Of a DNA stretch of 37,998 bases, positions 21,061 to 23,976 are shown piece by piece (the first letter of the stretch is position 1; each line of letters begins with the position of its first letter). A program made the translations under genes and the position numbers. The notes under the pieces are model-generated. The model did not search any database. It was not told the DNA's origin and saw nothing but the letters and a program-made list of their open reading frames with translations. The DNA comes from Nitrososphaeraceae archaeon (GTDB lineage: Archaea; Thermoproteota; Nitrososphaeria; Nitrososphaerales; Nitrososphaeraceae). The stretch is taken from contig JAJPHX010000032.1 of the NCBI GenBank assembly GCA_021325075.1, forward strand, positions 1-37,998, in the 5' to 3' direction.

Positions 21061-22248
21061 TTGTTGATGATCGGGGTGCCAAGGGAGATAAAGGATCAGG
21101 AGAACAGGGTAGCATTAACACCCCGCTCGGTGTCGTCACTTGTGATATCGGAATCCAGAGTCATTGTCGAGACACAGGCTGGAGCCAAGAGCGGATTTTC
21201 TGACGATGAGTACAGCTCCGCTGGAGCTACAATAGCCGGCTCTGCAGCAGAACTGTATTCCAGAGCTCAACTGATAGTCAAGGTCAAGGAAATACAGGTA
21301 TCCAAAAGTGAGCACCTTCACATAAAGCCTCAACACATCATCTTTGGCTTCAACCACTTTGAGTCAAGCAAAGAGCTTACCGAGGCAGCAGCCAGTTCAG
21401 GTGCCACTTTTATCTCATTTGAAAAAGTAGTAGACGAAAACGGTCAGACACCACTCCTGATGCCGATGAGCAAGATTGCTGGCACCATGTCTGGCATATG
21501 GGCGGGATTTTTCCATAATTATACATTCAGGCATGACAAGTCGATAAGGCTCAAGGCAGGGGCAGATGAGATCAGGTCAAAATTCATCGAAAGCTTTGAG
21601 CACGTCATGAACGCCAAGATTGGCAGCGATCTCAAGCGCATGCTGTCGTTGCAGGACAAGACAGCAGTAATATTTGGAGGAGGGAATGTCGGCGAATTGG
21701 CGGCCAGAGTCTGCTCTGCCCTTGGCGCAAAAATAATAATTGTAGAGAGGCGCGAGTCACGCAGGAAATACCTGCAAGAGATCAACTTTCCCAGATGCTC
21801 TATAATCGCAGCTGCCGACAAAGACCTCCTGCGCAGCGCGCACGTCATAATAGGCTCGACCTATGACAAAGAGAAAGCCGACAGGGTGATAGACGAAAAA
21901 ACGTTAAAAGAAATTTCAGAAATGCGCAAAAAGATAATCATAGATGTGGCTGTCGACCAAGGCGGCAACTTTCCCTACATCAACCCTTTAGGCAAATACT
22001 CGCCATCTACCACTGGCACAATACTGAATCCAGCGCTTGTAGACTATTTTGGAAACATCTTCATCAGGGTTCCAAACATACCGTCAATCGTCCCCAGATA
22101 TGCGTCTGCTGTACTATCCACCGTCGTAGCGGATTATGTCAGAGACATTGCCCACGAAGTCCCAAGGCCAGAGCTTGCCAGAGCAGTCAGCATCAAGAAT
22201 GGCAAGATCCTTGACCAAGCAATAGTCAAAGCGCATGGCCTTGAGTAG
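21061..22248 (+). CDS. ald: Alanine dehydrogenase
   Basis: 395 aa; MIGVPREIKDQENRVALTP (start may be ATG at 21067), VIFGGGNVGELAARVCSALGAKIIIVERR Rossmann motif and DVAVDQGGNFP. Confidence 0.93.
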   Translation: MLMIGVPREIKDQENRVALTPRSVSSLVISESRVIVETQAGAKSGFSDDEYSSAGATIAGSAAELYSRAQLIVKVKEIQVSKSEHLHIKPQHIIFGFNHFESSKELTEAAASSGATFISFEKVVDENGQTPLLMPMSKIAGTMSGIWAGFFHNYTFRHDKSIRLKAGADEIRSKFIESFEHVMNAKIGSDLKRMLSLQDKTAVIFGGGNVGELAARVCSALGAKIIIVERRESRRKYLQEINFPRCSIIAAADKDLLRSAHVIIGSTYDKEKADRVIDEKTLKEISEMRKKIIIDVAVDQGGNFPYINPLGKYSPSTTGTILNPALVDYFGNIFIRVPNIPSIVPRYASAVLSTVVADYVRDIAHEVPRPELARAVSIKNGKILDQAIVKAHGLE

Positions 22249-22433: not shown

Positions 22434-22456
22434 ACAACAAAAGTGGGGCCGAAGGG

Positions 22457-22487
22457 ATCTGTTCTGATGCGGCTTGCCACCGCGATC
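22457..22487 (-). other. tRNA-Trp intron 2 (non-canonical, in the T-loop near position 59-60), 31 nt
   Basis: GATCGCGGTGGCAAGCCGCATCAGAACAGAT lies between T-loop TTCAAAT and T-stem CCCTT. Internal stem GAT(c)GCGG/CCGCATC. Boundary ambiguous by about 2 nt (AT repeat). Confidence 0.8.
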
Positions 22488-22510
22488 ATTTGAACCCTTG
22501 ACCCACGGGT

Positions 22511-22543
22511 TTCTTCCTTCTAACTAGCCCTTTTTTGTTAGAT
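22511..22543 (-). other. tRNA-Trp intron 1 (canonical position 37/38), 33 nt
   Basis: Intron ATCTAACAAAAAAGGGCTAGTTAGAAGGAAGAA contains stem TCTAAC/GTTAGA. Boundary could shift by one nt because of the flanking A. Confidence 0.85.
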
Positions 22544-22638
22544 CTGGAGCCCGTTGCGATGCCAGGCTTCGCTACGACCCCACCAAGTTGGCATCGTGCT
22601 ATGGATAGCGTAAATATGTCTGTATAAGTCTTGCGTGG

Positions 22639-23976
22639 TTAGGAAAAGAGTATTTCAAGCGTGTTTGCGTTCATCGGGTTCCTACCAGCCTTTCTTCCTA
22701 ACAGTTGATCGTTATCAAGGTACCAGTGCTGTGAGTCCGGGAAGAGCGGCAGGTGTAATTCTTGCTTAGTGGCGGTATCGACAAACCCAGCTATCATGGT
22801 GTCGTTATAAGTTCTGACCATTTTATGCGCGGCCGTCGAGGCAATTACGTTAAAGTCATCAAGAGTGCTATTTGCCATCAGCGCCGAAATATTTTCCAAT
22901 TCATGACTTGCGTTTGCATTGTTCATCAGCACCTTTCTTTCTGCATCTAGCCACTTTCCATCAAACCTGAGCGTCAGAAGTGTCACGGCGGCCTGCTGGA
23001 ATGTTGAATCAAAGTTCTTGTCAAGTGACTCGACTCCCACTATAAAGCCGTTCCATATTCCCGAGTCGTCTGAAGTGTAGTTTCGCGTAAAGACCATCGC
23101 TCTGCCGTCGACTTGTTTGCCATCAGAATAAAAGCTGTATTTTATGTCGTAGGCAGGCGTCAATGATAAATTGGTGGAATTGTCGCCCATCATTAGAGCA
23201 TATGTAGAGGCTGCGGATTCCACCGTGTATGAGCGCAGGTTTTTCCGCAGAACAGGCATGATCTCACTTGTAAAATACTGTTCTGGAGTTTTGGCAGCGG
23301 AGATCATTACAGGGGCGTTTCCAAACGATAGCTCCCTTACCTTGTCTGCAGACACTAGGCCAGAGCATAGCTGGATAGACTTACAGAGCGAATCATCTGG
23401 AAGCAAGTGAATAGGCATTAGCGGCTGGAAAACGTATACAAGCGTATGATCGCTTCCCCTTGCAAAAAATACAAAGCCGGTCATTGACTTGTACGGTCGT
23501 ATTATCTGCATGTCGGCACTCCAGTTTTCAGGTATAAAGGCAGTCGCAGCTTTTTCCTTGCCATCAGTCCACTTGACATAATGGCTTTCTTCATTGCCTG
23601 TATCCGGCACTATCCTGCCGGAATATGTCGTGTCATTTATGAGCATCTTGTAGCTATAAGTTACCTCAGTCGAGTTTGTTTCGATTATAAACTTGGATGG
23701 CCTGTCTATATTTTTAGTAAGCTTTAACACCACTTTGCCAGATTCAACTGTCGCATTCCACCAGTCAGAGGCAATCACGCTTTGTACAGGCGATGATGAA
23801 GTAAGCTCTAGCTCGCCTTGTGTGGCAGAGGCTGTCCAGTTTGATGGCAACATCATTACCGTTCTCTGTCCCACTTGAGCTGTTGAAAATTTTGGCTCTG
23901 GCTGCTGTTGTTCTTGGGCATACACAGGGCAGAACAGCAGAAGAAGCGCCAAAGCTATCCAGCTATAACGGATCAC
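22639..23976 (-). CDS. Secreted hypothetical protein
   Basis: 445 aa; signal peptide-like MIRYSWIALALLLLFCPVYAQEQQ, many NxS/T sequons, otherwise soluble. Confidence 0.75.
   Translation of the reverse strand: MIRYSWIALALLLLFCPVYAQEQQQPEPKFSTAQVGQRTVMMLPSNWTASATQGELELTSSSPVQSVIASDWWNATVESGKVVLKLTKNIDRPSKFIIETNSTEVTYSYKMLINDTTYSGRIVPDTGNEESHYVKWTDGKEKAATAFIPENWSADMQIIRPYKSMTGFVFFARGSDHTLVYVFQPLMPIHLLPDDSLCKSIQLCSGLVSADKVRELSFGNAPVMISAAKTPEQYFTSEIMPVLRKNLRSYTVESAASTYALMMGDNSTNLSLTPAYDIKYSFYSDGKQVDGRAMVFTRNYTSDDSGIWNGFIVGVESLDKNFDSTFQQAAVTLLTLRFDGKWLDAERKVLMNNANASHELENISALMANSTLDDFNVIASTAAHKMVRTYNDTMIAGFVDTATKQELHLPLFPDSQHWYLDNDQLLGRKAGRNPMNANTLEILFS

Follow-up and report, generated by a model that had tools for sequence, protein, structure and literature searches.

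The window, that is, the whole 37,998-nucleotide stretch of the Nitrososphaeraceae archaeon genome that was analysed, carries a 138-nt pre-tRNA-Trp(CCA) on its minus strand at positions 22444-22581. Once two segments of 33 and 31 nt are taken out, a tRNA of 74 nt remains (138 = 74 + 33 + 31), in which the acceptor, D, anticodon and T stems are all paired, and in which the CCA anticodon sits in a 7-nt loop. The CCA tail is not encoded in the gene. On the two sides lie a plus-strand ORF ending at 22248 and a minus-strand ORF ending at 22639. A CTTATA element was found no more than 70 nt upstream of the gene in 51 of the 57 distinct upstream regions of the family. The features of the locus are as follows:

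22623..22628, minus strand: CTTATA, likely a TATA-type promoter element upstream of the tRNA-Trp gene
22544..22581, minus strand: exon 1 of tRNA-Trp(CCA); acceptor 5′ strand, D arm, anticodon stem 5′ strand, positions 32-37 (CTCCAG, anticodon CCA)
22511..22543, minus strand: intron 1, 33 nt, position 37/38; relaxed bulge-helix-bulge (BHB) motif; in 61/61 complete family copies, 26-48 nt
22490..22510, minus strand: exon 2; A38, anticodon stem 3′ strand, variable loop, T stem 5′ strand, T-loop 54-58 (UUCAA)
22459..22489, minus strand: intron 2, 31 nt, in the T-loop, 58/59 by the BHB rule; in 61/61 complete family copies, 23-33 nt
22444..22458, minus strand: exon 3; T-loop 59-60 (AU), T stem 3′ strand, acceptor 3′ strand, A73
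22492..22495, minus strand: exon half of the central helix of the intron-2 motif, G53-U54-U55-C56; standard pairs with intron GRAY in 61/61 copies
22461..22464, minus strand: intron half of the same central helix, GAAC; family variants GAAC/GAAU/GGAC/GGAU
22485..22488, minus strand: 5′ strand of the inner helix of intron 2, UGAU; covariation with 22465-22468
22465..22468, minus strand: 3′ strand of the inner helix of intron 2, AUCA; covariation

ARAGORN made no call anywhere in the unspliced window, and Rfam cmscan missed the unspliced gene as well (no match at E<=0.5); the Rfam model does match some of the orthologues, with 38-39 bits. The spliced 74-nt sequence was called tRNA-Trp(cca) by ARAGORN. 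When the whole window was searched for Trp genes with up to two introns, the sole fully paired parse was the one at 22581 with introns of 33 and 31 nt, and 300 first-order Markov sequences as long as the window yielded no such parse. An earlier note made from the sequence had given the same coordinates, strand, lengths and pairing, all of which proved exact. It had also warned that single-pass tRNA finders may overlook the gene and had proposed running ARAGORN; ARAGORN and Rfam cmscan do miss the unspliced form, and ARAGORN recognizes the gene only once it is spliced. Genome annotations produced with simple tRNA finders may show no tRNA-Trp in Nitrososphaeraceae.

The source genome (G000) is an 86% complete MAG of 1.58 Mb in 195 contigs. 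Its 36 tRNA-model matches include no other recognisable Trp(CCA) gene; since this genome is incomplete, the absence of a second Trp gene from it rests on the relatives. The single-contig genome of the same genus (G042) has 43 tRNA matches with one Trp gene among them, the orthologue with both introns, and no other. The exon-1 pattern matched once in each family genome that had any match. An exact-match search of 70 family genomes, which diverged copies would escape, found no second copy of the 3′ end outside the gene. Thus the observation that the earlier note had named as speaking against its reading, an intact tRNA-Trp(CCA) elsewhere, was made neither in the source genome nor in the complete genome G042.

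A family-wide search gave matches in 67 of 70 genomes, several of them weak chance matches in incomplete genomes, and in 37/37 of the genomes with at least 90% completeness and at most 5% contamination. To the question whether relatives keep both introns the answer was uniform: the two stand at identical positions in every one of the 61 complete copies, which come from 58 genomes of 11 genera of Nitrososphaeraceae, single-contig genomes among them. Intron 1 varies in length between 26 and 48 nt, intron 2 between 23 and 33 nt. Comparison across genera gives an identity of 95.6% for the exons, 64% for intron 1 and 58% for intron 2 (49% for shuffled sequence). After removal of the intron the T-loop reads UUCAANU in every copy. 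Contigs bearing the same exon 1 are mostly labelled as Nitrososphaera, Nitrosocosmicus or Nitrososphaeraceae.

A fragmented MAG and a gene that neither ARAGORN nor Rfam calls might point to a pseudogene or an assembly artefact, i.e. a Trp gene broken by insertion, with an intact copy elsewhere. We consider this extremely improbable: the same two inserts stand in the same places in all 61 complete copies, the exons are nearly invariant, the pairing of the insert is upheld by compensatory change (see below), and the complete genome of the same genus has no other Trp gene. The locus is almost certainly a functional, and probably the sole, tRNA-Trp(CCA) gene of this soil-type, ammonia-oxidising archaeon, with both introns spliced by the BHB route.

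Intron 1 has a relaxed BHB motif with the 5′ bulge AG/A and the 3′ bulge AA/A (slash at the cut), in which C32-U33-C34-C35 faces GAAG with one mismatch. Across the family copies mostly three of the four central pairs are formed. Placement of the intron at 37/38 or at 38/39 yields the same mature tRNA. An archaeal tRNA-Trp intron bearing a box C/D methylation guide is known, and it is also located at 37/38 (PMC4090602). Intron 1, in contrast, is short: neither the C box (TGATGA) nor the D box (CTGA) is present in its 33 nt, and in the family it reaches just 26-48 nt. The ends of the 37/38 intron in a tRNA-Gln(CTG) gene of the source genome, ATCTAAC...GAAGAA (L267, G000:C5:12674-12933), resemble those of intron 1 of the Trp gene.

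Intron 2 has a single architecture across all 61 copies. The exon segment G53UUC56 pairs with an intron tetranucleotide of the form GRAY (GAAC in 36 copies, GAAU in 14, GGAC in 7 and GGAU in 4). The 5′ bulge is A57-A58/N in 61/61 copies, the 3′ side is A-N/N59-U60-(C61), and an inner helix begins immediately behind the 5′ bulge. The four positions of this inner helix are paired in 51/51, 50/51, 49/51 and 46/51 cases. In the 30 distinct sequences 98.1% of the pair cells are standard (91.5% in shuffled sequences), and 24 cells show double changes, compared with 6.4 in the shuffles. Sliding the partner by one column lowered the pairing to 52-55%. All two-sided changes fall within the inner helix; the invariant T-loop supplies the exon half of the central helix, which for this reason shows only one-sided changes within Trp. 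In the same-site intron of a tRNA-Tyr gene (genome G052), exon C54 lies opposite an intron G (GAGU) in place of the U54-A pair of Trp, and this difference reads as compensatory within the central helix.

When the isolated T arm was folded with RNAfold, the central helix was less favourable than an open internal loop by a mean of 2.0 kcal/mol (0 to 5.1). As thermodynamic folding by itself gives no preference for the splice motif, the assignment was made on the comparative data. Since RNAfold prefers the open loop, we call the motif of intron 2 relaxed. The strict symmetrical BHB consists of a 3-nt bulge, a 4-bp helix and a 3-nt bulge; with a 3′ bulge of 4-5 nt in intron 2 and a helix mismatch in intron 1, the two motifs belong to the relaxed class and not to the strict one. 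Removal of the introns restores the cloverleaf, and a paired motif spans each exon-intron junction. Judged from sequence, the motif of intron 2 is a relaxed BHB. The sequence and the 61 orthologues thus bear out the earlier claim that this tRNA-Trp(CCA) gene has two introns, one of them in the T-loop, and a relaxed splice motif. The bulged stem GAT-c-GCGG/CCGC-ATC, which had been proposed as the BHB target, does exist as the inner stem of the intron, but the recognised element is the adjoining G53UUC56/GAAC helix with its two bulges.

BHB cleavage falls two nucleotides into each bulge, and by this rule the site of intron 2 is 58/59, which lies within the T-loop positions 54-60. In the window copy, placements at 58/59, 59/60 and 60/61 all give an identical mature tRNA, so that the 60/61 register of the earlier note produced the right tRNA; the splice motif and the relatives nevertheless favour 58/59, two nucleotides away. 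With 59/60 being a published intron position (PMC4090602), a cut at 59/60 or 60/61 has some precedent, yet it is unlikely. Besides departing from the two-nucleotide rule, it would require relatives with the sequences UUCAAUU, UUCAAGU and UUCAAUC to draw bases 59-60 from the variable 5′ side, and in one copy it would produce C60, whereas 58/59 always gives U60. That the insert might escape splicing and enlarge the T arm of the mature tRNA is permitted by RNAfold, which allows a stable extended T-arm hairpin. Such retention is very improbable, as the insert varies in length (23-33 nt) and diverges in sequence, its conserved elements lie where the splicing motif requires them, and its removal gives the UUCAANU loop in every copy. 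Moreover, inserts at the same site occur in other tRNAs of relatives, whereas the Glu(CTC) gene of the source genome has none. The preferred reading remains excision at 58/59.

The source genome has two splicing-endonuclease (PF01974) genes. The product of one, the 181-aa EndA catalytic (alpha) subunit, aligns along its length with the Aeropyrum pernix protein 3p1z_B (E 2.9e-43) and keeps the Y-H-K active-site residues; its K36 is aligned to A. pernix K44, the lysine of the CSL loop that was reported to be necessary for cleavage of relaxed motifs (PMC6379350). In the second EndA subunit the histidine is absent by alignment, and we take this protein as the putative structural (beta) subunit. 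From these alignments the host endonuclease appears to belong to the kind that can cleave relaxed motifs. An RtcB ligase is also encoded (E 2.4e-176).

These components suggest the following pathway. The gene would be transcribed whole from the upstream promoter. Two BHB motifs could form simultaneously in the precursor: the relaxed motif at 37/38 and another in the T arm, where pairing of G53-U54-U55-C56 with GRAY would create the bulges A57-A58/N and A-N/N59-U60-(C61). An (alpha-beta)2 endonuclease would then excise both introns by cleavage at the phosphodiesters stated above, RtcB would ligate the three exons, and CCA would be added to the resulting normal tRNA of 74 nt.

Other tRNA genes of the family have introns at the same T-loop site. 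They were found in the tRNA-Glu(CTC) genes of G026 and of the genus g12 (L287 in G026; L288-L290 in G065, G068 and G066), with the same GAAC..AA/AU ending; the Glu(CTC) gene of the source genome (L007) has no T-loop insert. The tRNA-Tyr gene of G052 mentioned above (L293) has two introns, a 37/38-type insert and the same-site T-loop intron. Several further genes have unusual inserts. An initiator tRNA-Met gene of the source genome (L030, G000:C37:8137-8242), missed by ARAGORN, seems to be interrupted near 52/53, within the T stem, by a non-canonical intron of ~31 nt. A tRNA-Gly(TCC) gene of G042 (L272, G042:C1:1108663-1108789) has an anticodon-loop insert and an apparent second insert in the T arm. 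Two loci (L265, G000:C129:12584-12840; L270 in G042) have a tRNA-like 3′ portion with a TTG anticodon and an unpaired 5′ part; they are probably tRNA-Gln genes with an intron near the acceptor or D arm.

Outside the family the Trp T-loop intron has no counterpart scoring above chance. When 401 genomes of the class were scanned with the intron-2 model, strong scores were confined to Nitrososphaeraceae; the best matches outside had E ~0.007, and those inspected were not tRNA genes. The mature-tRNA model, when applied across the order, mostly matched other tRNAs outside the family. Trp genes elsewhere in the order were therefore sought by length, parse and pattern, which leaves unsampled those families that match none of the three. 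The Trp genes recovered from one family (f9) are intronless and those of another (f10) have one long 37/38 intron, whereas in two others (f2/f6; L149 in G070, L156 in G074) the genes appear to have two introns, the second near 30/31 in the anticodon stem. Since the intron-2 model is strong only in the family and the other Trp genes of the order differ, the gain of the Trp T-loop intron most likely dates to the root of Nitrososphaeraceae or earlier. One f10 Trp gene (L214 in G173), seen once, combines the long 37/38 intron with a T-loop insert whose sequence differs and which may have been gained independently.

The maturation of an essential single-copy tRNA depends family-wide on two splicing events, and one of these takes place in the tRNA's most conserved loop. 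The T-loop sequence GUUCRA is common to tRNAs, so that almost any of them could lose by splicing a short intron that ends in GRAY-NN. It is conceivable, although we regard it as unlikely, that the T-loop intron, fixed in Trp and sporadic in Glu(CTC) and Tyr, is a module that moved between these genes and became fixed in Trp by breaking a 3′ attachment site. Translocation of similar introns among tRNA species was reported in Thermoproteales (PMC4033280). As to the last element, Sulfolobus tRNA introns that disrupt virus attachment sites were proposed to be protective (PMC4090602), and the lack of a second 3′-end copy in the 70 family genomes agrees with an intron kept because it destroys the tRNA 3′-end attachment site of integrating elements. 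The same lack would be equally expected without protection, and diverged copies escape exact matching, so that protection is an improbable explanation for the persistence of the intron. The presence of no intron, of one, or of a second one elsewhere in the Trp genes of related families makes a clean comparative system for the gain, fixation and loss of tRNA introns.

The earlier note had called the gene unusual. A two-intron Trp gene with a T-loop intron is indeed real, but it is fixed across the family, and both T-loop intron positions and three-intron archaeal tRNAs were already published (PMC4090602, PMC4390854). In the openly readable literature we found no description of this specific gene, nor of a T-loop intron that is fixed throughout a family in its only Trp gene, nor of reuse of the site in Glu and Tyr. 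The T-loop introns known in Crenarchaeota, at 56/57 and 59/60, resemble intron 2 in their site and relaxed BHB and in that they may accompany a 37/38 intron; intron 2 differs in interrupting tRNA-Trp at 58/59 and in being fixed across a family of ammonia oxidisers, not Thermoproteales (PMC4090602). Among published two-intron archaeal tRNA genes are those of Caldiarchaeum subterraneum, another archaeal lineage with introns at non-canonical positions; there the tRNA is tRNA-Thr(GGU), and the introns, at 24/25 and 45/46, vary within one population (PMC3293823). Within the same phylum, 107 non-canonical introns of Thaumarchaeota were reported with tRNAscan-SE 2.0, whose clade-specific BHB intron model was trained on non-canonical introns of this group; the Trp gene described here may well be among them, the main text of that paper listing none by gene (PMC8450103). 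To these published T-loop introns and multi-intron tRNAs, the Trp gene adds a case with a clear lineage distribution.
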